A stretch of DNA of 64,000 nucleotides. Origin: Dendrolimus kikuchii (taxonomy: Eukaryota > Arthropoda > Insecta > Lepidoptera > Lasiocampidae). Position 1 is the stretch's first letter. Every line of letters starts with the position of its first letter. Below the pieces are notes generated by a model. The model was not told where the DNA came from, searched no databases, and worked only from the letters and a program-made list of their open reading frames with translations. This document shows, piece after piece, positions 644 to 64,000 of this stretch. Location: positions 868,001 through 932,000 of the forward strand of contig CM034388.1 of assembly GCA_019925095.2 (NCBI GenBank), written 5' to 3'. Made by a program: the position numbers and the translations under genes.

Positions 644-3600
644 GTAAGTTGCTAAGAGTAAAAAATATTTTGGTCTTCTTGGATCACTTCACGAAAGATT
701 AATGAATTATAGGATTATAATTACGTAGCTACGTAGATTGTTACGAACACGTTACGGAGTACAAGTATTGAAAGGTATGTACCTTTCGGACAAGGGTTTA
801 GACCAGCCCCTCGAAGTTCTGGCTTACTGTGTAGATAATGACCACCAATAGGCTTTTTCATTTTAACAATAACCGCTACTATTGTTTTAGGCTGGAGGGA
901 TGCCCAGATTTGCAATTTTGATGTGTAGGCTTTGTGATATTTTCTTTTGGCGTTAGTAGGTGCTGATTGTAATAATAATGTATATCATTAAGTTTTAAGT
1001 TGTAAAACCAACTAAGATTTCAAATCTTGTCCGAAGAGAGATTTAAAGCTACAGGGATTTTTTGTAAATCGTTTTTTGGAATAAAACATTATTGTAGGAC
1101 TTTGCATTATATTTGTGGTCACAGACAGAATTGAAAATTGCGAGGCAACAAAAAGGTTATGATTAATTAATGTTGCTGTATTTTTATGTAGGAAGGAGAA
1201 GGCGGTGGGGAGAAAGAGATGGAGGAAGGCGCCGAAGAAGAAGAGGAAAAAATCAAAGGTGAGTGTAAAGTTCAAAGTTGTGAGGGCTATGGAGCGACTC
1301 ACCAGATTTATACGTTTCGAAGCGATGTACGTACATAGGATAGGAAATCGACTTAATTCTTAATTTAAACTTTCAAAATTGTTCTCAAATGGAACTTAAT
1401 GTTTTGAATATCCTGGAAACATTTTCGTAAATAGCACAGCATTTTTCATTATCCAGGACCTTACAATTCGTTTTATAGAAATAAGAGACGCGCTATTCAA
1501 GATGTGGTACGATCAGAGCAAGTCGAGTCACATCTCGTTGCTGGTCGGCGATTACCATCAGCTCGGCGTTTGGTTGTCACCTGGTGGGAAGGTCGTGGTC
1601 TTCGATCCAGCCCCCACTCTTGCGAAGGGCATGCTGACTCCGCAGAGGATTAAGAAAGGTATTGTTACGTTGTAGGAGGGTTTAATGAAATGCCAGCTGA
1701 AAGAATACAAGCTTTATTTACAGCACTTATAAATAGCCAGAGATATAAGTCGAGTCGATATTGTTCAAAATGCAGTTGCTAATATTTCTAACCGTGATGC
1801 AGATGCAACAACAACAGACAGACAGTATGACTCAGTTTCCAATGTAATTTACTTTGGATATAACTTGCATTTTTTTGACTTTTGTTGCTGGCATGTTTTT
1901 ATTTTTATTTTTAGGTGATGAGATTCGCCTTCAGCGCATCAAGGACGAGATGGCCGGCGAGGGCGGCGGTGGTGATGAGGAGGAGGAGGAAGAAGCTGGA
2001 GGCGGTGAGAATTCTCATCAACTTATCAGTTTTATGCAATTTAAATAAAAGTTCGAGTCTATCAGAATGGTGTTAGTCTGGATAGAGTGTTAGGTATATG
2101 GACTTAGTAGTTATAGATGCGAATAAAATGTACTGAGTTTCATGGTCTTACTTATAAACGTCTCTTAAGGTGGCTAAGTAATACTTAAATACCTGTAAAA
2201 AATAAACATGGTAAGTATTTAGTTTGAGCAATGACTAAGAAGCAATTTTGCGGTTTTTCTTTGAATCATTTGATTATAAAAAATATAGAAACTGAATATC
2301 AGCTGTCAACTTCTCGAGATATAGATTATTTTTGACAGCAATATTTATTAGGTTCGGTCTTTATTCAATCCTATTGGTTACAGTCTGTTTACTATGTAAG
2401 ATTTTGTTTGAATTAATAAATTAAAAAAAAAACTATACAGATTTCATTTATCTGTACGCCTTTGGAATGTGGGTAAACAACAGCTTAATCAAGTTTATAA
2501 GCGAAATAAAGATAAGTATTGTTGGGAATTTAAGAGCTTCTTAGTTAAGAGGTAGTTAAACATAGTTTAGCGAAATTTCAATAAGTAGTGCCCTAGATAT
2601 TTAACGAGTGTTTACTTTTGGCAGAGGGCGAGGAGCAGCCGGAGCCTGAGCCGGAGTTTGTGCCTCCGGAGGCTTGTCCGGCGTTAATGGTTTTCTCTAG
2701 TCCCGGAGAGTTTATTGACAGACTTAGTGAGTTATTTGAACAATACTTTTATACAACAGCAATAGCTGATGTGGGTTATTTAGTTTCTTTTTTTTTTCAC
2801 CATCTACCAATCATTTGGCGTCGGCACGATTGTTGTGTCTCTTTCCATACTTCTCTATTCTGGCATTAGTCTTCTGTCACATCACAAATCATCATGTTAT
2901 CCTTGAAAAAATACATGCGTCTCATTTTTAGGTCTACCTCTACATCTGTATCCATCAATCTTGCAGTTCAACATTATTTTGTCACAAGACTTATATTTTT
3001 CAATTACAAGGATATCATTTAGTGCCATCTCACAAAATTTTAAATCATCACCCATTAGCAACGATACAAATATCACAAATTACGATAATTAGTTATAGAC
3101 TTCGTAATACCGAAGTAAGAAAGAGAGTTGGTCTGAAAGAGAGAAAAGAATGCATGATGAAAGAATGACTAAACAGATATACAATGCAAAAGTGGATGGA
3201 TGCAGAAGTCGTGGAAGGCCACGACACACCTTTCATGATCAAATTGATCGTGTACTAGCAGAAGGTGATGTCAGGAGCCTTAAGAACAGACGAGCGTGCA
3301 TGACAAGAGCTATGAATGTCAAAGAAGCAAGTGAGGTGTGTAAGAATAAGCCTGAATGGCGCTCTGTTGTTCGTGCCTACCCCGCAAGGAAACTGGCGTA
3401 GGTATGTAGTTAAGGACATTTTTTTTTTCTGGTGTAATATCGCCTTGTTTTCAGCGAAGAAATCTTGTAGGTAAACTTAGAAAGCAAAATCTTTCCTGAA
3501 TACAAAAGATATAAGAGCTATAAGATTAACTCGTTTGTCTCTTATAGCTCTCCAAGGTCCTCTAGACAAGAAGCAATGCCTCGCTCCGTACAAACTGTAC

Positions 3601-6600
3601 CCTGTGAAGGTGACAAACGAACTCACCTCTGTGTTGAAGGAGAGAAAGGCACCACCTGCAAAGGCAGAAGGCGACGAGGGAGCTGCAGCCGAAGAAGGTA
3701 AAGACAGACAGATAGAGGTCAGGAGAGGAGATAAATAGAAGGCAGAGATAGATCTTGAACGATCTTAATACAATACAATCTGTAACAAATATGTAAGGGA
3801 TGTAGAGAGTTTATCAAGTTTGTATAATGCATTATAAACAAGTTACAGGGATTAATTCGGACCACCAGATTTTGAAAGTACAACTTTAGAATTTTGTTCT
3901 GCTTGTCTGTTTGTAAGTGCATCACGTGAGAACTAGTTTAAATTTAGGGTCTCTTGGCTTTTGACGGTTTATTGTTTGGATTCATATCGAAGATCTCTGT
4001 GATTGAGCGGGCTAATAAGCCTTTGACGGCTTACCTCACTGCAACGCAGAGGAACCGGGTTCGATTCCTAGTATAATAAAATTTTGGAAACGAATTTCCC
4101 TGTGTGTCGGGGATCGGCTCCAGAGTAGTTCGTTGTATTATCGATATATATAAAAAAAAAGCATATTCATCAGAGGAGGAAGTGCTGATCGAGCCTCTAG
4201 AGGATTCCGCCATTGGCAAATACTTCATACGGCTCGGCAGAGGATCGGCTTCGGTCAGAGGGAGAGTCGCTCAGCACGAGAATTACTTCATGGACCAAGC
4301 TAGGGATCGACAGGTATTAATGCTTTGCAGGTACTATCACATGACGCGATATATGTATTGAATAATGTTTATCACGGAAAATGGTCTAGTTTATTTACTG
4401 GGATAGTCGGAATTTTCCGCTTGCGAATAAGAAATAAAAGTCATAATATTATACTAAACTAACAGAATATATATGTCGGGTTCACGCCGGGAGCGAACGA
4501 ATGACGCTCCGAGAATATAATATCAGCCCATAAATGTCCCACTGCTGGGCTCGGGCCGCCCATGATACGGGAACGGACGTATACCCGCCACGCTTGCCCA
4601 AGGTGGCTTGGCAGGTTTGACACATCGGTTATCTCGATATGCAGGTTGCATCACGATGTTTTCCTTGACCGTTATTAGCACGTGATAATTGTAAGAATAT
4701 GCACGTTAGATCAGAAAACTGTCTAAGTGGTGCATGCGTTCCGGCCAGGATCGAACCCGCGCCCTTTGAGTTTGGGACGCGTGCACTAGCCATTACGCTA
4801 CCACGACTGATCCGAGAATAACACAATAATAATCTGAAATATTATAATCAAGTTTATTACACTAGAATTATTACAATTACGATATTAAATATTGCACACT
4901 AATACACAGAAATATTAGGACAACTCCAAGAGTTGCATCCACGCTTGTCAGGTGTCGAGCAGCAATTTGCCCTCCAAGAATACTGCGATTATCAAGCAGT
5001 AATTATCGACCACATTATATTATGTGCTCCTCGTCCAAGACTGTCAATGTAGACTGTCGGTCGTAGACTTGGTTGTAGACTCGTAGACTGTCGGTTTAAG
5101 ACTGCCCCTCCTCTGCCCGAACACCGCGTATTTAACAGTTCCTCGTAGCGCGCTAAATAAATGCTTCTACATTGACATCCGGTTAAACATCTTCCGAATA
5201 CTACATGAAAGAATGCTCTGTCCGGTTATTGACTACTTCCGTCATATGGTTATTTTATAATAACCAATACGATTCCTACATATAGGTATTCATAAAACAT
5301 AGCCATTAGAACTTTATGAAATATACAACTATTTGAAAAAGAAATGTACGTAATAAGGCTGGCAATAAGGCTTGTAACTCGGCATTATGATGTGTCAAGA
5401 TTTTTTTTTTTTTTTAGCCTGGGGAAATCCACTTGAGGACCATAAGCCGCGACAAGGGCAGAACCTTGGGGGGATAATTCGCGACCCGTGTGTAGGATTC
5501 GCCAGATCGAGGGTGGCACCAGCATGCCCAGTCAAAACTGGTGCCATGCTGTTGCCACCCCCGGTTAGGGATACCCACTAAAACCCCTGGGTGTTCCGTC
5601 CTTCGCCTTATGCCAGCGCTACGGGTATATGACCTAGCCTCTCCGCAGCCCTGGCAGGGGGACTCATCCCCCGGCATCATCATGCTCTCTAGGCGTGGGG
5701 CGGTCTATAACGCGCCCCACGGGAGGAGAGATGAGCGCGCGCGGAACACTCGCGCTCTCATCTCGACGGCATGTGCGGGTGAGTGAGAACCCCTATACCC
5801 CAAGGGGCCCCACCCGCGCCGCCCGCTTACGGTGGCCGAAGGTCGAAATCCGCCCTCCGGCGTCGGCGCGTCCTCCGTTGGCGGGAGCGGAGCAAGGACG
5901 TCCGCTCACGCTCCCGCTCCGCCTCCTCCTTCGCAAATGCTGTGTCAAGAACTGACACGGCGCTGATTTTCAGTACCAGCCTCCATCAAATCACATCTAA
6001 CCCAAACAAATAACTTCCTACTGCCCTTATAAAGGAAATTTAAAACAATTTTACTTAAATACTAACAACAAACAAACATGTCCTATATAGTCCAGATATT
6101 GTACTTTCGCATAATAAATACATACATACATACATACATAACTTCACGCCAGTTCCCTTGCGGGGTAGGCACGAACAACAGAGCGCCATTTAGGCTTATT
6201 CTTACACACCTCACTTGCTTCTTTGACATTCATAACTCTTGTCATGCACGCTCGTCTGTTCTTAAGGCTCCTAACATCACCTATTGCTAGTACACGATCA
6301 ATTTGATCATGGAAAGTGTGTCGTGGTCTTCCACGACTTCTGCATCCATCCACTTTTGCATTGTATATCTGTAATCTTAATATATATATAAATTACGTGT
6401 CACGTTGTTTGTCCGCGATGGACTCCCTAAACTACTTGACCGATTTTAATCAAATTTGCACACCGTTTGATCCGACTTGAAAGATAGGATAGCTTACATT
6501 TGGACCGGGTAGGTGGCGCTGGAATCGGGTTCTAAATTTTATTTCTTCAGGACAGAACAACGTCTGCCGGGACAGCTAGTACTAGTATAAGTTTATCTAC

Positions 6601-9600
6601 ACGGATACATTTTAAACAGAAATATAAATAAATGTAACAAATTTTAAAATGATATGTAATGATAAAAAATTGAGCTAATCAAAAGTATACTTAATATATA
6701 ACAGTATAGCGCCTAGATAAACATTTAATGCAATGTTTCTTGTGTGAATGATTGCTACCGAGATAAACAAGTGTTCCTTTAGTAACCTAAAATCCCAGTG
6801 CATTACATTTTATCAATTCACTCGTCTAATAACAAGACCTTTGACAAAATGTTTTTGAACATTTGTGCTTGTTCTTTTATATTCATCTAGCGGCCCCGGC
6901 AGACGTTGTCCTGCTCTGAAAAAATTAAAATCTATGACCTGATCCCAGCGCCACCTACCAGTTACAATTGTGGATTTAAACCATCCGGGGACCCACTCAA
7001 ACACAAAAACAAAATCACCAAAATTGGTCCAGGTGATTAGGAGGATTCTAGAACCCGATCTCAGCGCCATCTACCGGTTCCAACGGGATAAATAGTATCC
7101 TACGTCCATCTCCTGGGTCTAAGCTACCTCCCCACCAATTTTTAGCCAAATCGGTATAGCCGTTCCTGAGTTATAAATAGTGTAACTAACAAGACTTTCT
7201 TTTATATGTATATAGGTTTTTTTTTTATTGCAGGAGATCAGCAGACAGGCAGACGGCCTACTTGATGGAAAGCGATTACCATCGCCTATGGACATTTGCA
7301 ACAGCAAAGTTGCTACAAATGCGCTGCTGCTCTCTTAAGCGAGACTGGAACCTGGTCACTAATGCCGGAACACAACTCAAGGTTGTTATGGCGACATACT
7401 CTAGACCAGGGGTGGTAGCCATCCAGTCGGGCAAATGCCCTGCCACCTAGCTGTGGGTTGTTAAGTCGCCTCTTACGACAGGCCGCACCAACGCAGGTAA
7501 ATTGTATTCTTTCTCCGTTCCTGCACGGATAGAAACTCACTCATTTACCTTAGCATCGGTTGAATTTTGACATCACTTGTATGGATGAGAGAAAGGGAGA
7601 TGCCATGAGATGGGCGATATTTCTTTGTCTAATAATAATACATACATACATAACTTCACGCCAGTTCCCTTGCGGGGTAGGGACGAACAACAGAGCGCCA
7701 TTTAGGCCTATTCTTACACACCTCACTTGCTTCTTTGACATTCATAACTCTTGTCATGCACAGTCGTCTGTTCTTAAGGCTCCTGACATCACCCTCCGCT
7801 AGTACACGATCAATTTGATCATGGAAGGTGTGTCGTGGCCTTCCACGACTTCTGCATCCATCCACTTTTGCATTGTATATCTAATAATAATAATAAATAA
7901 ATAATAATAATAAATAAATAATAATAATAAATAAATAATAATAATAAATAAATAATAATAATAAATAAATAATAATAATAAATAAATAATAAAAGAATTT
8001 TTATTGTCACCAAAAATATAACAAATTTCGCCTTAAAATTAAGACTAGACACTAACACCTAGACTAGGCCAAGCCTGTATCCTAGGTGTTAGTTGGTCGC
8101 GTACTTCGAAGTTCTAACATTCTGTGTGTGACAGGACGCTGCCAACGCGATAATGGGCATAGTGGTGGAACACGTCGAGCCCTACGTTTACTGGAAACCC
8201 CAATTGATAGACGCGATATTGAAGTACGGCGACAGACTGTACACCATGTCGTTGCCGAAGGCTGCAGCGCCACCTGTCGTCACTCCGATGGAAATCGCCA
8301 CCGAGTTTCACGTCACCAATTTCAATGTAAGTCTTATCTCCTTCAACGCATTTAGGTTAATTGTTATGTACGAGCGACTCGATTTTTTTCATTTAAAATA
8401 TATTTTGAAGGTCTAGTCACAACCTAAAATGTTTCAGTATTTTTCCAATTCATAGTTCAACACTGAGCGGATGGTCTATGCTGAGAGGAGAGCATGATTT
8501 TTCCGACTTCCTATTTCCGGATCATATCTGGCCACCTATTAGCTTAAATAATTATCGTGAAAAGTCGTTACGATTTTTCAGTACAGTTTACATACATACG
8601 CAAGCATGAACAACAGCGCCATTTAGGCTTATTTTTACACACCTCACTTGCTTCTTTGACATTCATAACTCTTGTCATGCACGCTCGTCTGTTCTTAAGG
8701 CTCCTGACATCACCTTCTGCTAGTACACGATCGATTTGATCATGGAATGTGTGTCGTGGCCTTCCACGACCTCTGCATCCATCCACTTTTGCATTGTATA
8801 TCTGTTTAGTCATTCTTTCCACATGCCCGAACCACCGGAGCATTCCTTTCCTTCACCCCGACACTCTGTTTCAGACCAACCACGATACCAAACACGATCA
8901 AGTACATAGAATAAATTCAACCCTTTGTTCCATATATAGGGGCTACCCCTAAGCTTTATATGTCTAGAGGCTAGATTACATATCGGTACTAAATTTTATT
9001 CCTATAGACATACAGAAAACATTAGCTTATTTTGAGAGCTAAAATTCATATAGGTTACATTGCATGCATTTTTTGTCAAGGCGCTATTCGCTACAGAAGA
9101 ATTTCGATCTATCCCGCAATAATTATCCCATTTTCCATGATAAAATGGACGCGTTTCTTTAGTAGCTCACAGCGCCCAAAATGCTCCGTCTGCCGTTCCA
9201 CAAGGCGACCGCAGTCGTTGTGGTCGTGGCGAAAACTTCACTAATGACGTCATCGTTTTCGATCACACAGCGCTCACAACGACCTATTCCAATAGATGGG
9301 ACGAGGTGGGCTTTGACCACAGAGCATTGATTCTTTTTATCTCTTGACATTGAAAAAGGCGCGATTTTCAAATCAACCAATGACATTTATGTATTTCGTC
9401 GTTTATGACATCAACGTCCCATAATCCGTTCCGCTAGAGTTCAAATTCAAAAGTTTTTATTCAACTTAAGTTCAACTAGAGAATTTTAAGTTAAAATTTA
9501 GTTCTATCCGTGCAGGAACGGAGTAAGAATACAATTTCCTGCGTTGGGGCGGCCTGCCGTAAGAGGCGACTTAACAATCCACAGCAAGGTGGTAGGGCAT

Positions 9601-12600
9601 TTGCGCGACTGGATGGCTATCACCCCTGGTCTAATGTATGTCGCCATAACAACCTTGAGTTGTGTTCCGGCATTAGTGACCAGGTTCCAGTTTCCCTTAA
9701 GAGAGCAGCAGCGCATTTGTAGCAACTTTGCTGTTGCAAATGTCCATAGGCGATGGTAACCGCTTTCCATCAAGTGGGCCGTCTGCCTGTCTGCTGATCT
9801 CCTGCAATAAAAAATAAATAGTTTATGATTGTAACGTCCGCAAGCACGTGGAACGGGAAAAATCGCGGTTGTGAAAACGTGGTCGTTGTGAGCCCCTTCT
9901 AGAACGGAGGCAATGTACCTTGTATCTAGTGTCTAACATATACGTATTGGGCCCCAATTTTGCTATTGTAATATCCTCCTAGTGGTAGACCATTGGTGGC
10001 TAAAGGGTTGTTTTATCATACAAAAATAACCATTATGACGCTACCCTAGTAGCATTTTGGGTAGGCTGATTGATGGGCCTCTGTCTCAGTTTGGGTTGGC
10101 CAATAGATAGACTTGTCATCCCTAAAAATAGTTGTGCCTACCGTAGGTAAACTCCTTCAGGGGCCAACAAATTTTTCTTACAAAGGCCCTAGGAAAGAGT
10201 TCATATCATTTTTTTTTTCTTTTTGAGGCGAGGGAAAATGCTTAACCAATTTACTCATAAACTGGGCCGTTGCTAGGGGAACGTCACGCGTCGGTCGGGG
10301 CCGATAACACTGCAGCAATAGTATGCTCTTGGCAGTGCTCCGTCCGCGATCGACGTCACAGAATAGTGTGGAAGACTCCGAGCGTTGCTACACGAGCGAG
10401 CAACCCCAATACCCACTAAAAACCCCCTCCTCCCTGACGACCCTGCGCTTTGTATGTGTTGGAAAGGCTGAGATTTAGAACATAGTTACGCCCAGCCGAA
10501 GAGTTCATACCATATGCCAACATTGGTTAAGCGTTTATTTTGTTACAAAGGCCCTAAGAAAAAGTTCATACTGTATGCCAATGTTGGCTAAGAGTCCATT
10601 TTCTTACAAAGGCCCTAGGAATATCTTCAGAGTGATCGTCCACTATAGTGGACGATTCTGAACATATTCTAATAACAGCAGGACCCTGCTCACTTCCCTT
10701 GTAACTTTTCAACGCGCAGCCAGGAATGCGGTAAGACTGTAATAGAAGGTTTAACTTAGTGTTTCTTTTATATTGCTATCATGACATAAATTAAGCAAGA
10801 ATAAATTTGGTACCTACGCTCACGTATGGAAGCGAGAGTTGGGTATGGAAGAGAGAGCATGAAAGTAGACTAAACGCGGTTGAGATGCGAGTACTGCGCA
10901 AGATCTACGGAATGACGCTCGCGAACCGCGTTCGTAGTACCGAAGTAAGAAAGAGAGTTGGTCTGAAAGAGAGTGTCGGGGTGAAGGTAAGGAAGGGAAT
11001 GCTCCGGTGGTTCGGGCATGTGGAAAGAATGCATGATGAAATAATCACTAAACATATATACAATGCAAAAGTGGATGGATGCAGAAGTCGTGGAAGGCCT
11101 CGACACACCGTCTATGATCAAATTGATCGTGTACTAGCAGAAGGTGATGTCAGGGGCCTTAAGAACTGACGAGCGTGCATGACAAGAGCTATGAATGTCA
11201 AAGAAGCAAGTGAGGTGTATAAGAATAAGCCTGAATGGCGCTCTGTTGTTCGTGCCTACCCCGCAAGGGAACTGGCGTGAAGTTATGTATGTATGTAAGA
11301 ATAAATTTCAGGTTCGTTTGGAAATCGTAGGAGACACAGTAGACGGGGACATAAAAGCTGGAGAGACTGGGGGAGTTCTCAATGTGAGGAGGGGATTGCT
11401 CCAGTTCTTTGAATCTGTGAGTGATTTGCTTTATAGTTCAATCTCTTTAGTCGATATTACCAGTAGACTTCAGCTGCCATGAGTGGAGTTGGTTGTGGTG
11501 TCGAGTTGATAGTCTTTCCCCCCGGCCTTAGAGAGTAACGGCTCTTCAGTGATGTGGTCTTGGAGCTGTTGGAGACTTTCGAGTTTTGGTGTCTACACAA
11601 CGATTGACGTTGGCCAATTTGAATCTTTAAACCCTTATAAGCCCCCAAAATACTCCATCTATATAGGTAAATAAAATTATTGAAGTGTCTGTTTGTAATA
11701 TCAAAATAAAAAAATCGGGGAGGATAATCCCTAACAGGAGATTTAGTAAATACAACCGATTTTGACGGGACTATCACTGGCAGAGAGCTGATGTTATAAG
11801 GCTGCTTTTAGGGTTCAGAGAGAAAAAAAATACCACTGAACTTTTGCATGATTGGATGTAAAAATTATTTCTGGTGGTGTAACATTCAAAGATTGCCGTC
11901 AGCATAGTGCAGTCCACTGCTGCACTTAGCCCTCCTCATGTATTCCTGTCCGACATTTTCCTCATTTAGCGCCCCTCGGTGACCTTAAGCAGGACATCAA
12001 TCTATCCGGCGGGAGTGAATCTTACACTCTGTTTACCAAGATGCAGCCAGTTCCATTCAAAGAGACTCTGAACTAATTTACTTGTATAATCCCCTTTAGA
12101 ACAAGTACGGCGTCCTCTGCTCTAAGAACTATTGTGTGGCTGTTTGGAAGGCAGCTGATGATAAGTCGTTTGTGCTATGGGAGCCACATTCGGTAGGACC
12201 TGGTGGGAAGAGTTCCCCAGTGGGAAGTGCTGCTTGTGTGCTCTATTCTACTATAGAAGAAGTGGCCGATGTCTTCAGAAGTAATGTAGAAGGACTGGCA
12301 AGAGGAGGTACTAATAGGCGAGTAAAGAAATTTGTATACCTGATCCCATTTATCCGTGCAGAAACGGAGAAAGAATACAATTTCCTGCGTTGGGGAGGCC
12401 TGTCGTAAGAGGTGACAAAACAACCCACAGCCAGATGGTAAGGTATTTGCTCATCTAGACTGCTACCACCCCTGATCTAGAGTATGCCGCCATAACAACC
12501 TTGAGTTGTGTTCCGGCCGGCATCAGTGACCAGGTTCCAGTTTCCCTTAAGAGAGCAGCAGCGCATTTGTAGCACTTTTGATGTTGCAAATATTCGTAGG

Positions 12601-18600: not shown

Positions 18601-21600
18601 TAAAGCATGTCGCCATAACAACCTTGAGTTGTGTTCCGGCATTAGTGACCAGGTTCCAGTCTCCCTTAAGAGAGCAGCAGCGCATCTGTAGCAACTTTGG
18701 TGTTGCAAATGTCCATAGGCGATGGTAACCGCTTTCCATTAAGTGGGCCGTCTGCCTGTCTGCTTAACTCCTGCAATAAAAAAATATAAAAAAATCTTTT
18801 ACTCTTGGAAGGCTACGTTAATAGGGAGTGTCATAGGCTATATAATATACATACATAACTTCACGCCAGTTCCCTTGCGGGGTAGGCACGAACAACAGAG
18901 TGTCATTTAGGCTTATTCTTACACACCTCACTTGCCTCTTTGACATTCATAACTCTTGTCATGCAAGCTCGTCTGTTCTTAAGGCTCCTGACATCACCTT
19001 CTGCTAGTACACGATCAATTTGATCATGGAAGGTGTGTCGTGGCCTTCCACGACTTCTGCATCCATCCATTTTTGCATTGTATATCTGTTTAGTCATTCT
19101 TTCATTATGCATTCTTTCCACATGCCCGAACCACCGGGGCATTCCTTTCCTTACCTTCACCCCGAGACTCTCTTTCAGACCAACTCTCTTTCTTACTTCG
19201 GTATTACGAACGCGGTTCGCATCCATACGTAAGCGTAGGTACCAGCACCGCGTTGTGTATGGCGGGCTGGGCCTTCTGGCCGAGGTTCTTGGCGCCTAAA
19301 AGTTTACCTAACGCTCCATTCACACTATTCCCCAAATTCACTCTTCTTTCTATATCAGCGGTGTACCTTCCATCCCTGCTAAAAGCACATCCAAGATATA
19401 CAAACTCATTCACTTGCTCTAGCATAACATCATCGACCATTATCCTTATAGGCTATATAACATGACGCTATATACCACGGGAGCGGAACAGTCATTACTA
19501 ATTTAGATACGTTTGTTCAGGTTCACTCGAGACGCTCTGTTGCAGTCGTCCTGTGGCGCTATAGTAGGTGCTTGCATGTCGCACGTGCGAAGACCACAGC
19601 TGTGGACCAGGTAAGCAATTTGAAATTTGGAAAATTGCTAATTAATATTCGCCTGCTAAAAACGGCATCCACATTGTTACAACTCAGGTCCCGACAAACA
19701 CAAAATCCACCTGCATATCTGAAACAAAGCACATTTATTACCCGTCGGCATTTGAACTAATCACATTGAAATTCTTTTATGGTCGTCTTCTTTTGTTTAC
19801 TTATTGGCATACGGCCTATTGTTGTGTTGTAATCATTAGACTGGTGTTATGGATTTAAAGTACAAGCTGATTCTAGGAAATTCGGTCCACGCTGCCTGGC
19901 GAACATATTGCATTTGTGCAGTATAAAGCAACTATCTAGGTAAGCGTGATCGTCCGGCATTGGATGTGATCGTGGTCAAACGCAAACCTATTTAATATAA
20001 AAAAGGCCCGATTGAGGGAGGAGTTAGTCGAGCGAGAACTACCAGCGAAGCGAGACGTGTGTACTACAATCGGGAATCTAATAAGTGACGGACTATGCGC
20101 GTTTTATTCAATTACGACCTTTTGCATTACGTTTGAATTTGTTGTGTTCGGTTATATTTGTACCTGTGTTATAAGTGTTTGTATAGTTCTTATAAACTCT
20201 ATAATAATTCCAACGGCATTTTAATTCGAGTCTTGCAAACCGTAACAATATTAAATTTTACTTTGTTACTACGATTTCAGTTTGTTTCGAATCACTGGAT
20301 GCGACCTATACTCAAAAAGCTAACTTTGTCTGACTTGAAGTACGAGGTGAAAAATTTTGGCAAAGAGCTTAAGATTATCGAGAAAGAAAATTAGTTTAAA
20401 CAAAATCAATTCGATGGTTTAATATAAGAGCTATTTTGGATTAAATGTTTTAGGATTTCTTAGCCAAATGACAGCAGAGTTATACATACATAACTTCACG
20501 CCAGTTCCCTTGCGGGGTAGGCACGAACAACAGAGTGCCATTTAGGCTTATTCTTACACACCTCACTTGCTTCTTTGACATTCATAACTCTTGTCATGCA
20601 CGCTCGTCTGTTATTAAGGCTCCTGACATCACCTTCGGCTAGTACACGATCAATTTGATCATGGAAGGTGTGTCGTGGCCTTCCACGACTTCTGCATCCA
20701 TCCACTTTTGCATTGTATATCTGTTTAGTCATTCTTTCCACATGACCTAACCACCTGAGCATTCCTTTCCTTACCTTCACCCCGACACCTTCTGCTAGTA
20801 CACGATCAATTTTGGCCTAGAAGTTTACCTAACGCTCCATTCACACTATTCCCCAAGTAGTTACAATACACAACAGCAGAGTTATGCACATCAAAATTGT
20901 CTACGCATAATATGTGCCTATTGATTTGTCAACAAAGCATAATAATTTGCAGATTTTTATAATTGTTTATTTTGATGACTAATAAATTGTTATCTATCTA
21001 TCCATTTACGGAATTAAAATATACATACATACATACATACATAACTTCACGCCAGTTCCCTTGCGGGGTAGGCACGAACGACAGAGTGCCATTTAGGCTT
21101 ATTCTTACACACCTCACTTGCCTCTTTGACATTCATAACTCTTGTCATGCAAGCTCGTCTGTTCTTAAGGCTCCTGACATCACATCACAATTAAAATATA
21201 CATATAAATATTAAAGTCTTGGGACTCGGACAAAAGACAAGTATGTATTCTGTTCATGAATAGTTCAATATGGCGAGTAAAAAGAGTTTTGGAATACGCT
21301 ATTCCAGAAAAACCGTGGATGAGGTGATGTCAGTGGCGTGCCAGTTGTTCGCGGCGTCTTTGGGCTCTTTGGGATACGAGTTTAGGCCTGGAGAAGACGT
21401 CCTTTTGCCACTTCAGGTGAGATATATGAATAAAATGTATAATTCTAGTTGTTACCTGCTGCTATGCTTTGCTTTCTTGCTTTCTGAACGAAGTCGAAGT
21501 AGGACAGCGACGATGGATGAAAAATGTACTTCTTTATTTCTCACAATAGTTTAAACATGTAACTTACATATCCATAAATTGAGAAGTTATTTGCTTTCTG

Positions 21601-24600
21601 AACGAAGTCGAAGTAGGACAGCGACGATGGATGAAAAATGTACTTCTTTATTTCTCACAATAGTTTAAACATGTAACTTACATATCCATAAATTGAGAAG
21701 TTATTTGCTTTCTGAACGAAGTCGAAGTAGGACAGCGACGATGGATGAAAAATGTACTTCTTTATTTCTCAGAATAGTTTAAACATGTAACTTACATATC
21801 CATAAATTGAGAAGTTATTTGCTTTCTGAACGAAGTCGAAGTAGGACAGCGACGATGGATGAAAAATGTACTTCTTTATTTCTCACAATAGTTTAAACAT
21901 GTAACTTATCTATAAATGGAGAAGTTATTTGCTTTCTGAACGAAGTCGAAGTAGGACAGCGACGATGGATGAAAAATGTACTTCTTTATTTCTCACAATA
22001 GTTTAAACATGTAACTTACGTATCCATAAATTGAGAAGTTGTTTGCTTTCTGAACGAAGTCGAAGTAGGACAGCGACGATGGATGAAAAATGTACTTCTT
22101 TATTTCTCACAATAGTTTAAACATGTAACTTACATATCCATAAATTGAGAAGTTGTTTGCTTTCTGAACGAAGTCGAAGTAGGACAGTGACGATGGATGA
22201 AAAATGTACTTCTTTATTTCTCACAGTAGTTTAAACATGTAACTTACATATCCATAAATTGAGAAGTTATTTGCTTTCTGAACGAAGTCGAAGTAGGACA
22301 GCGACGATGGATGAAAAATGTACTTCTTTATTTCTCACAATAGTTTAAACATGTAACTTACATATCCATAAATTGAGATGTTATTTGCTTTCTGAACGAA
22401 GTCGAAGTAGGACAGCGACGATGGATGAAAAATGTACTTCTTTATTTCTCACAATAGTTTAAAGATGTAACTTACATAGCCCTAAATTGAGAAGTTATGG
22501 TTTGCCACATAAACAATAAACGACGTCATGATTGTTTTGAAAGCCGAATGGTAGCATAATTATATCCTTCTCCAGGATGCAATCAATTGCTATATTTCAT
22601 CACGATCCGTTTAGTTTATATCAAATATTTACCTCTCTTTCTCTTTCCCTAATCATAAAATGTCTTCTTTTCGGGTTGGCACAAATAAGACTTCTCTTTC
22701 TCTCTCTCCTGTATTACTCCGCCATTTTGGCACATGTCATAAACCATCTGTGGTATATTTGAATTTTATTAGTTGTTGTGGGGAGAGATATATTATAAAG
22801 TAGCGGCCCCGGCAAATGTTGTCCTGCTCTGAAAAACAAATCTAGAAGCCGAACCCAGCGCCACCTACCGGTTCCAATTGTGGATTTAAACCATCCGGGG
22901 ACCCACTCAAACACACAAAAACAAAATCACCAAAATCGGTCCAGGTGATTAGGAGGATTCTAGAACCCGATCTCAGCGCCTACCGGTTCCAACGGGATAA
23001 AAAGTATTCTACGTCCGTCTCCTGGTTCTAAGCTACCTCCCCACCAATATTCAGCCGAATCGGTACTGCCGTTCTTGAGTTATAAATAGTTTAACTAACT
23101 CGACTTTCATTTTATATATATAGAAGATATTAATTAATATACTGACTGACTTCAGAGTGTTTATTTTAATTTTAAAAAGAGATACAATACGCGTATAATA
23201 CGAGTAATCGACATATGACACAGACAAAGAGAAGAACAAAAACATAGACAATATAAACTTACTAACTAGTGATGTGGATATACCACATCATCATCACGTC
23301 ACTCATCCTTCACATTTGAATTCATTTATCTCTTTTTGGTCCACCTTTTACTTAACTATTACTAGCTTTAATTTTTACTTGTATTCATCAACCTCCCAGT
23401 CTATAATCTATTTTCAAGGTTTAAGAACTATATAGAACATGATTCACTACAAACTGAAAACTAATGTACAATTTGTTTTTCGCGTTCTATATTCTATGTA
23501 TTTATACTAATAATCAGGTGTTGAAGAGGTTCGTCCTTGGCGTCAACTATGTCCGCTATGATCTTGAATCTGTCTTCTCTGGGAGGCTGGAACAGAAGGA
23601 CCCCACCGGAATGACTGTCAGGTCCATTTAATGTTATTTCATGACAATTTTCAACGTCGAAGGCCACGACACACCTTCCATGATCAAATTGATCGTGTAC
23701 TAGCAGAAGGTGACGTCAGGAGCCTTGAGAACAGACGAGCTTGCATGACAAGAGTTATGAATGTCAAAGAGGCAAGTGAGGTGTGTAAGAATAAGCCTGA
23801 ATGGCGCTCTGTTGTTCGTGCCTACCCCGCAAGGAAACTGGCGTAAGTATGTAGTTAAGGACATTTTTTTTTGGTGTAATATCGCCTTGTGTTCAGCGAA
23901 GAAATCTTGTAGGTAAACTTAGAAAGCAAAATCTTTCCTGAATACAAAAGATATAAGAGCTATAAGATTAACTCGTTTGTCTCTTATAGCTCTCCAAGGT
24001 CCTCTAGACAAGAAGCAATGCCTCGCTCCGTACAAACTGTACCCTGTGAAGGTGACAAACGAACTCACCTCTGTATTGAAGGAGAGAAAGGCACCACCTG
24101 CAAAGGCAGAAGGCGACGAGCACAGACGAGCAGAACAGACGAGCGTGCATGACAAGAGTTATGAATGTCAAAGAGGCAAGTGAGGTGTGTAAGAATAAGC
24201 CTGAATAGCGCTCTGTTGGTCGTGCCTACCCCGCAAGGGAACTGGCGTGAAGTTATGTATGTATGTAATTTTCAACGTAGCCTAAACTGCTTCGATTGCA
24301 TTAATCTTGAATATCTTCATCTCTTACATGAAAAGCATTAACAAAAATTTCATAATCTGTCAATTCTCGAAAGCTGAGACAAACAAAAAACATGCAAAAG
24401 ATGTCGTTGCTACTTTTCTGTGGTAGCTAATTATCAGATGACAAGACCTACAAGAGGCCGTGCAAAATACCTTAACACTCAACACGTAGCCAGGTGGTAG
24501 GGCATTTGCTCGACTGGATGGCGACCACCCCTGGTGTAGAGTATGCCGCCATAACAACCTTGAGTTGTGTTCCGGCATTAGTGACCAGGTTCCAGTCTCC

Positions 24601-27600
24601 TTTAAGAGAGCAGCAGCGCATTTGTAGCACCTTTGGTGTTGCAAATGTCCATAGGCGATGGTAACCGCTTTCCATCGAGTGGGCCGTCTGCCTGTCTGCT
24701 GAACTCCTGCAATAAAAAAAAAACACTGGCACTTGGAGGTTGAACCTTAGTTCTTTCGAATTTTGCTCTGGCTATGGCAACGTCTTTAGACTTGACGAGA
24801 ATTTTTTTATTTTTTATTGTAGGAGATCAGCAGACAGGCAGACGGCCCACTTGATGGAAAGCGGTTAGACATTTGCAACAGCAAAGTTGCTACAAATGAG
24901 ACTGGAACCTGGTCACTAATGCCGGAACATACCTCAAGGTTGTTATGGCGACATACTTTAGACCAGCGGTGGTAGCCATCCAGTCGGACAAATGCCCTAC
25001 CACCTGGCTGTGGGTTGTTTTGTCGCCTCTTACGACAGGCCGCCCCAACGCAGGAAATTGTATTCTTTCTCCGTTCCTGCACGGATAGAAGATAACTTGA
25101 CCGATGTCCATCCAGATGTGCGTTGGAGCGTTTCTTCGAGGCGCACACCCACGGGATACTGTGGTCGGTGCCGCACGCAGTGGCCGTGTGGCGCGTGGCG
25201 GGCGCGCCCGCCTTTTATATGATGAAGCCGCACGCCTGCGGACCCACCGGGCTGAGGATCGATGCTCAGGTTGGGTACACTTATTTATGTTAAGTTAAGT
25301 AGCCATTTTTTTTTTTTTTTTATCGTAGTATAGGTTCGCGTTTGACCACAATCTTGCCTTATGTGGGGCGAAGATATGGTCTAGGATGGAGCACGCTTGC
25401 CTAGAAGGTACCTATTCACACGTGACTTGAAGACACCCAGGTTATATGTATCCGGAAAGACAGACTCCGGCAATGAGTTCCACTCCTTTGCGGCGCGTAT
25501 GATGAAGCGAGATGCAAAGCGCTTCGTTCTAATAGGTGGAATATCCACCATATATCGATGCCGCATGCCGGTTCGTCTGGTTGTCCGATGATGGAAGGGA
25601 GATGGCGGGATCAGATTGAAGCGCTCAGCTGCACACTCTCCATAGTGAATCCGATAGAAAACCGACAAGCTGGCAACGCTGCGCCGATGTTCGAGACTTT
25701 GCATTTTGTCATCGAAAAGCTGGTCGTTGCCAACCGGCCTCCTGGCTCTCCGCTCAATCAACTCAAGTGCTTCGAGTTGGTATTTGGCTGAGCCATCCCA
25801 AAGCTGAGAGCAGTACTCCATACATGCTCGTACTTGTGTTTTGTACAATACTAGCAGTTGTTCAGGTGTGAAGTACCGTCTCACCTTCGAGAGTATGCCT
25901 AGTTTTTTTGCCGCAGTTTGTGCGATACGCTCGATACATGAGCCAAAGTTGATAGTCGACGTCAAGGGAACGCCAAGAAGCTGAAGTTCGTCGGTCATCG
26001 GAACGGGTACTCCTTTTCCATTTTCACAGAGTCGAAAGCTGTGAGGTTGCCAAAAAGAGATTTTATTTTTATTCTCCTCTTTACCATTTATATTTGGTTT
26101 GCGCTAATATGACCACGTTGCCGAATATCGTGAGAAGCTTAAATGGTTACCTATTCGCCTTCGCCGGAACGTTCACTTGCTCTCTCTTTTGTACAACCTC
26201 CTTTTGGATCCTCGTACTCCTCCTTATTTAAAGGAACGCTTTGACTTCCTACGTCTTTCTCATTCCCGTTATTTGCGCTCTAGTCATAATCTCTCCTTAA
26301 TGACACCTGTACACACTTCTTCCTTCGTTGACAACTCTTTCACAGTACTGGCTGTCCGTTTATGGAACTCGCTGCCACTCAACATCAGACAAGCTAAGTC
26401 GGTATCCTCTTTTAAAATCATGGTTTTTAATTATTTTTGGTCCTCTCAGGTATAATAGTGCTGTATGTATTACGATATGTACTGTGTTTATACATACATA
26501 CATACATAACTTCACGCCAGTTCCCTTGCGGGGTAGGCACGAACAACAGAGCGCCATTTAGGCTTATTCTTAGACACCTCACTTGCTTCTTTGACATTCA
26601 TAACTCTTGTCATGCACGCTCGTCTGTTCTTAAGGCTCCTGACATCACCTTCTGCTAGTACACGAACAATTTGATCGTGGAAGGTGTGTCGTGGCCTTCT
26701 TACTGTGTTTATATAGTATATAATAAAGATTTTTATTTATTTTATATATTTTGATCATTTTATATTATTTATTGTCTACACCGCCACTGTCATGTTGTAA
26801 TATTTCCCTTAGTTTGGGGGGTTGCCTGGAAGAGATCGCTTTAAGCGATAAGGCCGCCCTTTGTTCAACATTTATTGTATCTAGTTTTTAAGTTTAAATT
26901 TTGGTGAACAATAAAGTGTTTTCATTCATTCATACCATTCCCTTCCGACCTTTCTCTTTCTTCTCCTCCCCTTTTTCTCACCTCTCTCCGCTTTACTCCA
27001 CATCCCTCCCCAACCACACCCCACAAATAATCCAAATCTACCTATGACAATTGCAGGATGACGGCGCACCTTGTGTGATGACATTCTCATCAGCAAAATT
27101 GATGGCCTTTTCGTAAGTTTTCATTTTCATATTATTCATAAATTACCCAAGTAGTTGTTATAATTAGGTCTTTTGCAATGTCGTTATTAGATATTCTTCA
27201 GCTAGATGTAAGACTCCCCTAGTTTACGCCACGTATACCGGTCCTGTCCTTTGCTCATCCAGCTTCTTTATGTTTTATCTGTGCAGGAACGGAGAAAGAA
27301 TACAATTTCCTGCATTGGGGCAATCTGTCATAAGAGGCGACAAAACAACCCACAACCAGGTGGTACAGTATTAGTCCGTTTGGATGGCTATCACCCCTGG
27401 TCTAGAGTATGTCGCCATAACAACCTTGAGTTGTGTTCCGGCATGAGTGACCAGGTTCCAGTTTCCCTTAAGAGAGCAGCAGCGCATTTGTAGCGCCTTT
27501 GGTGTTGCAAATATCCATAGGCGATGGTAACCGCTTTCCATCCAGTGGGCCTGTCTGCTGAACTCCTGCTATAAAAATAAAATGGACATTTGCAAAACCA

Positions 27601-33600: not shown

Positions 33601-36600
33601 GTAGAGGCCCCTTGACAAATTTAATGTAAATGTGGCGTGACACTGACCGGCGATTATCCCTGTCCACACCATATAGTAATGCACCCAAGGACAAGCCCCG
33701 GCCAGTGCAGGACTATTGTGGGAAATGAGGACAAAAAGTACCGGGCTATTGTGGTGAATTGCTAATGGTACTAGGGGTCTGGGAATATGGGGACTATGGC
33801 GTCTGCCCGTCGCAATGTTCAGGCCCCAAAAAATGCCATAAAGACAGGGGCAACATGGGTGTGAGTGGCTAAGGGGTGTCGAGAGGTGGGCTGCAGGTTC
33901 ACCGAAGCTACTTCCGACGTTAGACCATTTATCACTTCCACCCCTGGAGCTTGAGTCTTAGCTCTAGCGACCTCCACTCCGTGCCGGCACCATTATTATT
34001 ATTATTATTAACGGTGCTTAGTTTAGAAAATATAAAAACTACTAATGAAGTTATGTTAAATGTTTATGTTAATGCGTTTGCCTACAAAAGTGCTGACCAC
34101 GCAGAGCTTGGTCATCGTTTAGGCTAATAATTAGATATAAAGTTCAAGTAGTTCATAACAATTTTTTTTTTATTGCAGGAGATCAGCAGAAAGGCAGATG
34201 GCCCACTTGATGGAAAGCGGTTACCATCGCCTATAGACATTTGCAATACCAAAGGTGCTACAAATGCGCTGCTGCTCTCTTAAGGAAAACTGAAACCTGA
34301 TCACTAATGCCGTAACACAACTCGAAGGTTGTTATGGCGACATACTTTAGACCAGGGGTGGTAGCCATCCAGTCGGGCAAATGCCCTACCCACCTGGCTG
34401 TGGGTTGTTAAGTCGCCTCTTAGGACAGGCCGCCCCAACGCAGGAAATTGTATTCTTTCTCCGTTCCTGCACGGATAAAAAATTACAGTTCAGTTGGTCT
34501 TCTAAGAACTGTTGGTGCGGCGGCGCTGGGTTTAGCGGGAAGCGAACTGTGTCAAATTTGCGGGAAAAGAAGTGTGGGACAATTTTGATGGGAATCGGAA
34601 GATAAGCACGCATTTACCTGGTTAATGGGAATGAAATGCGGCTGCTCCTCTGCCCTAAGTCCACTTCACTTCACTTTATTTGTTATAATTTATATTATAT
34701 TTTACAATTTGATGCGGAGCGGGTTATTTATATAATACACATATTAATGAGTTGCGGGGGCGATATATTTTATGGTATTTTATTTATTTACAATATATTT
34801 GTATTTGCGGAGCGATGTAATTTATTTTATTTTATGATGACATGAGATGAATGATTGACGTGACGTGCGAAAGGGGACGCGCCGTCAGATTTAAAGGAAG
34901 AATTTAAATATGTCGAAGAAAAGTATGAATAGGTCGAAAGGAGGTTTCCATGGCGGTACCAACTGTCGAGCAATAAACTTGTCTTAAAAATTTGACACTA
35001 ATTCTCCGCGCCACCCTACTTATCTAATATTTTCATTAGAAACGTGTTCATACTCTCGTCTGTTTGAATGTCATTGCCATAATTTATTCAATGTTGATTT
35101 TAATATCTTAGATTTCAAGTCAATTAACTAATCGACTAGTTTCGAGTTCTGCATCCACAAACGTACGTACGATTATTATTATATTTTTCTCTCTAGATCT
35201 TGCGCAAGTTCTACACGCCGGGCAACTGTGTGTGTCGCGTTGTCGTCTACAAGGCCCGCCAGAAGGGATCCGTAGACACCGATTTAGTGCAACAGGTAGC
35301 AAAATTAATTTTATTAAGAAATAAAACTGAATTGTGTGTCTGTGATTTTGCCAGAATTACCAGAATTTATTATACTTGGTGAAAACCGTTTTTTTTATGC
35401 GATGGTTAATTATAATATATCAGCCTAATTATAATATACCAGTCTAATTATAATATATGAGCCTAATTATAATCTATCATAGTAATTATAATATATCAGC
35501 CTGATTATAATAATATAGGTTGGGGAAAAAGTCTTTTCGCATATAGTATGTATGAACTTGTAATAAGATCTCTTTGGCTATACCATTTGTATCTGGCTGG
35601 TTTTGGTATCATTAAAAAGTTTTAATTTTAAAGAAGACAATTCCAAATTCAAATTGGGAAAATTTGTGTTTTCATTTGTTTTTCTTATTGTTAAAATGAG
35701 TGAATCTAATGAGGAAATTCGATACATTTTAAAATTTTACTACAAAAAAGGTAAAAATGTAACACAAGCCGCGAAAAAAAAAATTGTGATGTTTATGGAC
35801 CTAATGCAGTATCTGTGAGAGTAGCGCAAATTTGGTTTAAGCGTTTTCAATCCGGAAATTTTGATTTCAAAGATGCACGTCGCTGTGGTCGCCCTGTTAC
35901 GAACAAAATTGATGCCATTTTTTGAAAAAGTGGAGCGAGTTCGGCATATTAGTAGTTACGATGTAGCTGGAGAATTGGGAATTGACCACAAAACGGTTTT
36001 GGCGCATTTGGTAAAAGCTGGGTACACAAAAAAGCTCGATATTTGGGTGCCTCATGAGCTCACTGAAAGAAACCTAATGAACCGTGTACTCATTTGTGAT
36101 TCTTTATTACGACATAATGAAACCGAACCATTTTTGAAGAAGCTGATAACTGGTGATGAAAAGTGGATCACGTACGACAACAACGTGCGAAAAAGATCGT
36201 AGTCAAAGGCCGGTCAGGCTTCACAGACTGTGGCGAAACCCGGGTTAACTCGCAACAAGATGATGCTGTGTGTATGGTGAGATTGGAAGGGCATTATTCA
36301 TTATGAGCTGTTACCGCCAGGTAGGACCATCGATTCTGAACTGTACTACGAACAACTGATGAGATTAAAGCAAAAAGTTGAGAGAAAGCGGCCGGAATTA
36401 ATTAACAGAAGGAGTGTGGTTTTTCACCATGATAACGATAGACCTCACACATCTTTAGCCACTCAGCAAGAATTACGAGAGTTTGGCTGGGAGGTGTTAA
36501 TGCATCCCCCGTATAGTCCTGACCTTGCACCTTCAGATTTTCACCTCTTTCGGTCTCTGCACAATTCCTCAGGCAGTGTCAGGTTAACATCACGAGAGGA

Positions 36601-47920: not shown

Positions 47921-48205
47921 ACATACATACATACATACATAACTTCACGCCAGTTCCCTGGCGTGGGAGGCACGAACAACAGAGCGCCATTCAGGCTTAA
48001 TCTTATACACCTAACTTGCTTCTTTGACATTCATAGCTCTTGTCATGCACGCTCGTCTGTTCTTAAGGCTCCTGACATCACCCTCCGCTAGTACACGATC
48101 AATTTGATCATGGCAGGTGTGTCGTGGCCTTCCACGACTTCTGCATCCATCCACTTGCCCGAACCACCGGAGCATTCCTTTCCTTACCTTCACCCCGACA
48201 CTCTG
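47921..48205 (-). mobile_element. RTE-like LINE, internally deleted
   Basis: (CATA)n start; the reverse frame runs through [19 protein letters not shown], then a deletion joins it to MLRWFGQ. Confidence 0.8.
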
Positions 48206-52577: not shown

Positions 52578-53020
52578 TTATGGAAGCGGGAGTTGGGTAT
52601 GGAAGAGACAGCATGAAAGTAGAGTAAATGCGGTCGAGATGCGAGCACTGCGCAAAATCTGCGGAGTGACGCTCGCGGACCGCGTTCGTAATACCGAAGT
52701 AAGAAAGAGAGTTGGTCTGAAAGAGAGTGTCGGGCATGTGGAAAGAATGCACGATGAAAGAATGACTAAACAGATATACAATGCAAAAGTGGATGGATGC
52801 AGAAGTCGTGGAAGGCCACGACACACCTTCCATGATCAAATTGATCGTGTACTAGCAGAAGGTGATGTCAGGAGCCTTAAGAACAGACGACTGTGCATGA
52901 CAAGAGCTATGAATGTCAAAGAAGCAAGTGAGGTGTGTAAGAATAAGCCTGAATGGCGCTCTGTTGTTCGTGCCTACCCCGCAACGGAACTGGCGTGAAG
53001 TTATGTATGTATGTATGTAT
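52578..53020 (+). mobile_element. RTE-like LINE, internally deleted
   Basis: 119-codon frame; about 40 bp between GAGAGTGTCGGG and CATGTGG are missing. Ends in (TATG)n. Confidence 0.84.
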
Positions 53021-57719: not shown

Positions 57720-58640
57720 GTTGTTAGCCTTAAAATAATTATAACACCCTTTTTTAAAAAAACCCGATTTCGTAGCGCTGTAGGCAAACCTCAGCTCAAT
57801 GCCAATCCCCAGGGTGAGAAAGAGAAACGTTTTAGGGAACCGTTGCATACATGAGCGAAGCGGCTCAAGGAAGCAGGGATGAATGGTGATGTGGTAGAAA
57901 GAAGACGAAGGCACCATTCTCGGAAGATTCACCGTTATACAGTCGGTAGAATAGGCAAAGAGACGGTCTCTCCGAAGGCAAGTCTATCCGTGCAGTAACG
58001 GAGAAAGAATACAATTTCCTGCGTTGGGGCGGCCTGTCGTAAGAGGCGACTTAACAACCCATATCCAGGTGGTAGGGCATTTGCCCGACTGGATGGTTAC
58101 CACCCCTGGTCTAAAGTATGTCGCCATAACAACTTTGAGTTGAGTTCCGGCATTAGTGACCAGGTTCCAGTTTCCCTTAAGAGAGCAGCAGCGCATTTGT
58201 AGCAACTTTGCTGTTGCAAATGTCCATAGGCGATGGTAACCGCTTTCCATCAAGTGGGCCGTCTGCCTGTATGCTGATCTCCTGCAATAAAAAAAAAGGC
58301 CAAGCGTATCTAACGTCTGTAAGTATGGGCTCGTTGACAACGCTACGTTGAATAGAGCTCAGAGGATTACGCTGGTAGGCGAGGGCTACAGCCCACAGGT
58401 GTGAGCAGTAGTCAATATGCGGCCTCACCTGGGCTTTATAAAGCACAAGGCGTTACCGCGTAGTGAAGTACCACTGCTACTGTACTAGCACTTCCAGCTT
58501 CTTGGAGGCAAGTCTTGCCAACTTCGTTTGCAACGTCGACACCAAGGATCTCAATATCCTTGGAGGTAGTAACGACAGTTCCTTGTAACTGAAGCGTATG
58601 CATTTTATAGTTTTGTGCCAAATAAAGAAGATTGGACTGT
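57720..58640 (-). mobile_element. Jockey-like LINE remnant, interrupted
   Basis: On the reverse strand 58310-58640 gives LYKAQVRPHIDYCSHLWA and an upstream EILGVDVA block, and 57720-57984 gives KTFLFLTLGIGIELR after further decay. The 310-bp repeat at 57986 splits the two parts. Confidence 0.65.
57986..58298 (+). mobile_element. 310-bp A-tailed repeat, nested in a LINE
   Basis: ATCCGTGCAGTAACGGAG to CTCCTGCAATAAAAAAAA, inside a decayed LINE on the other strand. Confidence 0.75.
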
Positions 58641-63973: not shown

Positions 63974-64000
63974 AACATACATACATAACTTCACGCCAGT
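63974..64000 (-). mobile_element. RTE-like LINE, start of a copy cut by the window end
   Basis: ACATACATACATAACTTCAC matches the 3' terminus of the family in reverse. Confidence 0.8.

Follow-up and report, generated by a model that had tools for sequence, protein, structure and literature searches.

By what route can the end of an intron, together with most of a predicted exon, come to lie inside a retrotransposon insertion 20 kb downstream of the original, in the same orientation and likely within the same gene? The question is raised by positions 23646-24278 of the window, that is, the whole 64,000-bp stretch of Dendrolimus kikuchii DNA analyzed here. At this site, 609 bp lie between two exact 12-bp target-site duplications (AATTTTCAACGT), both of which abut the insertion and which occur in the window only at 23646 and 24267; the duplication encloses the whole composite, as the first-pass annotation had claimed. 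The composite is a bounded structure with two switch points, in which RTE sequence of a lineage other than that of the source locus flanks the host patch, and in which host patch, RTE parts, and gene all have the same (+) sense. The coordinates of the parts and of the source locus are collected in Table 1.

Table 1. Features of the composite insertion and of its source locus (positions in the window).
Feature	Positions	Strand	Basis or remark
Source-locus RTE copy	3101-3408	+	Own internal deletion of ~50 bp
Source intron segment	3409-3547	+	
Source predicted exon ("exon 6")	3548-3697	+	Open frame; AG/GT borders; donor GTAAAG; between homologous exons 2642-2761 and 4260-4313
5' target-site duplication AATTTTCAACGT	23646-23657	+	Exact match to 24267-24278
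5'-truncated RTE piece, non-source lineage	23658-23771	+	T, T, G at 23741, 23755, 23771; alignment of 28 RTE sequences
Interval with the homologous switch from non-source RTE lineage to source-locus sequence	23772-23835	+	Last non-source base 23771; first source-private base 23835
RTE 3' end and altered tail from source locus (3391-3408)	23836-23853	+	Tail GTAAGTATGTA
Copy of host intron end including 3' splice site (source 3409-3547)	23854-23989	+	Pairwise alignment; acceptor TTATAG
Copy of first 131 bp of predicted 150-bp host exon (source 3548-3678)	23990-24120	+	Pairwise alignment
Exit junction, GACGAGC three times	24115-24144	+	24121-24131 (C + ACAGACGAGC) is repeated filler
Second RTE half: RTE 3' end and (TGTA)n tail	24132-24266	+	blastn; alignment with other RTE copies
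3' target-site duplication AATTTTCAACGT	24267-24278	+	Exact match to 23646-23657

The derivation of the patch was established by direct comparison with the source. BLAST aligned 23655-24120 with 3210-3678 at 97.2% identity over 469 columns, and a base-by-base comparison, which showed 10 substitutions (7 of them in the first 114 bp) and one 3-nt indel, confirmed the match of the first 460 bp to 3213-3678 described in the first-pass annotation. The 140 bp of intron with its 3' splice site and the 130 bp of exon described there were measured as 136 bp (139 bp in the source) and 131 bp, respectively. The copied part of the exon has a translation identical to that of the source, its sole substitution being synonymous. 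Homology extending past the 12-bp repeats had been named as an observation that would speak against such an insertion; in BLAST, no match of 23401-24500 runs past them by more than a few bases, and the other matches of this region are RTE copies. No Rfam match was found in 23000-25000, the RTE pattern gave 0 matches in viral contigs, and a scan of 23600-24300 for bacterial promoters returned nothing, its bacterial model not being informative for this DNA.

Exons on the + strand were predicted by homology at 530-637, 1478-1660, 2642-2761, 4260-4313, 8132-8332, 12103-12309, and 25114-25263, with an additional weak protein match (E = 0.049) at 21300-21395. The homologues, from Choristoneura fumiferana (P0001) and Leptidea sinapis (P0002) together with P0003, came from two database searches yielding one and then three homologues, the scores in the latter covering the 7998 candidates sharing most words. 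The status of the source exon as "exon 6" is based on its open frame, its AG/GT borders, and its position between homologous exons, none of the three homologues covering 3548-3697; a protein search limited to this exon and its neighbors also found no homologue. The partial Choristoneura protein joins the neighboring exons without it, which counts slightly against its being an exon. Database annotation assigns PF04843 (Herpes_teg_N) to all three homologues, and a Pfam scan of P0001 and P0002 found this domain in P0002 alone, under the cut-off.

With protein matches on either side, the source exon and the insertion site likely belong to one gene, as had been proposed. One gene is not proven, however, because the domain matched at 25114 occurs repeatedly in P0003, and it is possible that source and insertion lie in neighboring genes of one family. 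The region 530-33162 (+) as a whole has the appearance of a long gene or of neighboring same-family genes with repeated domains, with lepidopteran homologues listed under PF04843 (Herpes_teg_N).

Twenty-six other RTE copies were counted in the window, with borders set by hand from BLAST and with a 26-bp end piece (63975-64000) left out. The RTE reading frame ends in ...PARELA*, followed directly by a simple-repeat tail (consensus of the copies, TGAAGTTATGTATGTATG); four C-terminal RTE pieces gave no Pfam match above cut-offs. The second half of the composite is mostly 92-97% identical to other RTE copies by blastn and terminates in TATGTATGTATGTA, in agreement with the earlier description of an RTE 3' end with a (TGTA)n tail closing the insertion. 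With a script for exact repeats, 13 of the 26 other copies proved to have a repeat of 10 bp or longer close to each end (some of low complexity), and neither RTE half of the composite was found to have a duplication of its own, so the 12-bp duplication around the composite corresponds to that of one normal insertion of the family. Two adjacent RTE insertions were rejected on the same ground, that is, the lack of a separate duplication for either half. Splicing as the origin of the joint was likewise rejected, since the exon part lacks a donor where it meets the junction and the 19 bp of exon preceding the native donor are missing. For the source RTE (3101-3408), a degenerate flanking repeat (TAGTTATAGAC/TAGTTAAGGAC), missed by the script, was recognized by eye.

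Several further repeats were noted in the window. RTE copies with internal deletions lie at 3101-3408, 8604-8880, 18847-19291, 47928-48204, and 52579-53015, with a 4-7 bp overlap in three of the four larger deletions. Another dispersed repeat, also abundant, of ~318 bp, roughly 84-95% identical among copies, occurs at 7217-7536 and at least ten other places (for example, 9502-9818, 34162-34481, and 57983-58297), and 42876-43511 consists of three tandem copies of a 208-bp unit, with a further copy at 6374-6578. An open frame of 240 aa at 25381-26103 (-), without a Pfam match, resembles the C-terminal part of another LINE reverse transcriptase.

More detailed information on the origin of the RTE parts was obtained from an alignment of 28 RTE sequences, comprising the source, both halves of the insertion, and 25 other copies of this window. 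The left half has T, T, and G at 23741, 23755, and 23771, where the source has G, C, and A; of the 22 other copies with all three sites, 4 (16810-, 19090-, 21190-, and 50890+) have this T, T, G haplotype. Differences between insertion and source number 7 in the 114 bp up to 23771 versus 3 in the 352 bp after it (Fisher p = 0.003, or p = 0.008 without the base adjoining the duplication), and 3 of those 7 hit the seven subfamily-informative sites of the stretch (p = 0.005). From 23835 onward, by contrast with this non-source stretch, the insertion contains a source-private base and the altered tail (GTAAGTATGTA, one substitution apart from GTAGGTATGTA in the source), which none of the 24 other copies spanning this part of the alignment has. 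Judged from these diagnostic bases, the insertion switches RTE lineage between 23771 and 23835. The presence in the copy of the private base 3390A and the altered tail indicates that the source RTE (3101-3408) is older than the event, as the first-pass annotation had concluded. The single jump from RTE RNA to pre-mRNA proposed in that annotation does not by itself account for the 5' RTE piece, because the bases of another lineage at 23741, 23755, and 23771 call for a second switch or a later conversion.

The two RTE halves share the common state 212T and the rarer 228G (4 of 22 others), and the only diagnostic site separating them is column 198, at which the left half has T and the right half has G, the state of the source. 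The alignment, by these lineage bases, shows the host patch embedded in non-source RTE to its left and right, which implies an out-and-back excursion with homologous entry and microhomology exit. The left half is non-source to at least column 228 and the right half begins at column 185; the recipient RTE is doubled around the patch over columns 185-228 (44 bp) by sequence, but over only columns 212-228 (17 bp, non-source on both sides) by lineage, because columns 185-211 could derive from the source.

The exit junction lies at GACGAG, which is common to the exon and the RTE as reported in the first-pass annotation, and which can be described more precisely as GACGAGC occurring three times, at 24115, 24125, and 24138. 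From the exon side, the run reads GGCGACGAGC-ACAGACGAGC-AGAACAGACGAGCG, with the 11-bp filler being a piece of the RTE's own ACAGACGAGC. From their sequence, the GACGAGC repeats are identified as stuttering or templated filler. A filler inherited from an RTE variant was rejected, since CACAGACGAG occurs in the window at this junction only; copy 45647, which is poorly aligned there, contains ACAGACGAG once only. Inspection by eye found no microhomology for the repeats themselves in either direction of synthesis, and the junction consequently does not tell a reverse transcriptase from polymerase theta.

The reading favored here, although tentatively, is one retrotransposition with two template switches, from RTE RNA to unspliced pre-mRNA and back to RTE RNA. 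Target-primed synthesis would begin at the (TGTA)n end of an RTE RNA (24266), and the reverse transcriptase would reach the ACAGACGAG stretch, stutter, and switch at GACGAG onto the sense-strand unspliced host pre-mRNA. The exon and intron pieces would then be copied and the RTE copy within that intron entered, with a return to RTE RNA taking place inside homologous sequence between 23771 and 23835, and synthesis would end at 23658 as an ordinary 5' truncation. We infer RNA templates, a common origin of both outer halves in one event, and a pre-mRNA that was nascent near the target site. A more specific version, in which the RTE reverse transcriptase used the nascent unspliced transcript of the recipient gene as a side template, entered by a 6-nt match and left via the intronic RTE copy, is proposed with greater reserve.

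Retrotransposition with RNA template switches is consistent with the single 12-bp duplication around a composite of which neither RTE half has its own, with the 5' clustering of differences from the source, three of which carry the base of another lineage, and with the sharing of 212T and the rarer 228G by the two halves. The common sense of patch, RTE, and gene is what RNA templates require. Furthermore, the whole structure fits one event, and a re-copied RTE stretch is easily produced by a returning reverse transcriptase. The differing bases of the two halves at site 198 (T versus G) speak against it, as do the restarts of the stutter, at which no separate microhomology was seen by eye. The RNA would also have to be unspliced and to come from the very gene that received the insertion. 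In addition, sequence no more than 300-500 bp 3' of a sense RTE makes up only ~4-7% of the window, so that random pre-mRNA capture there would be a coincidence, which a DNA mechanism avoids.

Internal junctions in the other RTE copies bear on the same reading. Such junctions, counted with one copy as reference, are present in 6 of the 26 other copies, all 6 being among the 11 whose 5' extent suffices, and four of the five larger junctions show 3-7 bp shared by the two pieces. Six of the seven junctions lie in the 5' part of the RTE and the seventh in the 3' end of copy 8880; that not all are 5' reflects the lack of part of the 3' end in copy 8604-8880. The 5' clustering has p = 0.004 at a cut picked post hoc and p = 0.065 at a later cut. 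A mostly 5' distribution suits jumping by a reverse transcriptase, but only one of the seven junctions falls in the 3' part of the RTE, where the proposed jump began, and the junctions could instead be DNA events. Copy 20484-20872 (-) lies inside a 13-bp duplication (ACAGCAGAGTTAT at 20471 and 20873), and the 16 bp at its 5' end have no match. It contains an out-and-back excursion as well, a 27-bp piece of its own 3' region replacing at least 128 bp, and is in line with the RNA route.

Reverse transcription of unspliced pre-mRNA, as advanced in the first-pass annotation, fits the structure, but a DNA-level ectopic template switch into an older, 5'-truncated RTE copy already present at 23646 predicts almost the same product; with the intron retained, the insertion carries no mark specific to RNA. 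This DNA-level switch is regarded as a serious possibility, though a less probable one than the RNA route. A broken or stalled strand would invade the homologous, like-oriented RTE 20 kb upstream, copy beyond its end into the intron and exon, and rejoin at GACGAG, by synthesis-dependent strand annealing (SDSA) plus alternative end joining or by a replication template switch, and reverse transcription of host RNA would be unneeded. It fits nearly as well as the RNA route because homologous entry from a donor in cis is natural there, as is a start inside the RTE. Seamless entry via 114-178 bp of homology, an exit with microhomology and 11 bp of repeated filler, and the 228G shared by the outer halves (4 of 22 other copies) are all accommodated, and the 198G of the right half, being the source's base, looks as if the filler had been copied from the source. 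Work on Drosophila records both templated insertions and end joining where SDSA was aborted, and SDSA finished there by polymerase-theta end joining has a homologous start, a microhomology exit, and templated filler near the exit, as at this locus (PMC2895639). In contrast to those Drosophila events, some of the recipient sequence beside the patch is doubled here and not lost (PMC2895639). Simple gap repair predicts loss or no change, and the doubling of the recipient RTE by 17-44 bp therefore speaks mildly against the simplest repair model. Two events are also needed, and the private changes in the flanks (3/244) are not clearly above those in the patch (at most 2/352; p = 0.40), a dating of patch against flanks that was set aside as having no power. 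The relative weights given to the RNA and DNA routes are a judgement.

A third explanation, considered improbable, is 5' transduction, in which an RTE once resided in exon 6 at GACGAG, the read-through pre-mRNA was retrotransposed whole, and the exonic copy was lost by selection. The exit junction does also resemble the 5' junction of a truncated insertion, and lost source copies have been proposed for human L1/mRNA chimeras (PMC13174262). On the other hand, exon 6 of this assembly contains no RTE, and the non-source 5' RTE piece is left unexplained unless an extra switch or a conversion is added. Still less credible is the single jump of the first-pass annotation with the 5' RTE piece, or alternatively the source RTE, converted afterwards by a different RTE copy: four copies with T, T, G are at hand in the window, but a second, unrelated event confined to about 30-115 bp would be required. 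An assembly artefact, through a chimeric contig or collapsed haplotypes, is the least probable of all, the exact duplication at both ends and the 10 substitutions being unlike a mis-join.

Template switching with retrotransposition, the favored reading, has counterparts in known systems. It is one proposed route for LINE-1 chimeras with mRNAs and small RNAs (PMC13174262), which, like the insertion described here, have a LINE 3' end and a second RNA inside one duplication. According to the sections of PMC13174262 drawn upon here, splicing largely accounts for their sense mRNA partners, which are found 5' of the LINE, contain the first exon, and in many cases meet it at splice sites; the present patch, in contrast, is internal, keeps an intron end, probably originates in the recipient gene, and is flanked by RTE at either end. 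Another non-LTR element of insects, R2, jumps in vivo to other RNAs, namely tRNA and U12 snRNA in Drosophila, its reverse transcriptase joining its own RNA to another RNA during target-primed reverse transcription (PMC3414825), a likeness that favors the RNA route. Unlike here, the small-RNA partner of R2 is found at the 5' end, with no return to the element described in the corresponding part of that paper, whose authors favor another route over template jumps for R2 internal deletions (PMC3414825). By analogy, LINE-1 chimeras and R2 jumps thus illustrate the proposed mechanism in kind.

Among Lepidoptera, 3'-terminal RTE copies share with those of this window the C-terminal frame, a stop followed by a simple-repeat tail, 5' truncation, and target-site duplications, whereas the tail here is TGTA and no host patch is mentioned in the passages on those copies (PMC2887409). 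Among the matches listed in a search of titles and abstract beginnings of open-licence literature, there was no LINE insertion enclosing an intron-retaining stretch of the gene that hosts it. An RTE insertion with an internal host-gene patch looks like an unusual accident, but not one unprecedented in kind.

The acceptor of the copied exon is preserved, but the native donor is missing. Continued in frame, the exon runs into a stop at 24181; a donor-like GTGAGG at 24180 would avoid this stop, giving a frame-shifting exon of 190 bp in place of the native 150 bp. On these grounds, a protein made with the copied exon spliced in would probably be impaired.

If the templates were DNA, a duplication enclosing a LINE would be no proof that all of its contents arrived by retrotransposition, and a lineage test inside the repeat would offer a simple way to detect composites made by DNA. 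If they were RNA, old intronic LINE copies could act as re-entry points, and a LINE could duplicate an exon and its splice acceptor within one gene without a spliced transcript. The more specific version, with the nascent transcript as side template, would, if true, provide an RNA-based means of placing a copy of a gene's acceptor and exon in one of that gene's later introns, sense intronic RTE copies serving as docking sites.
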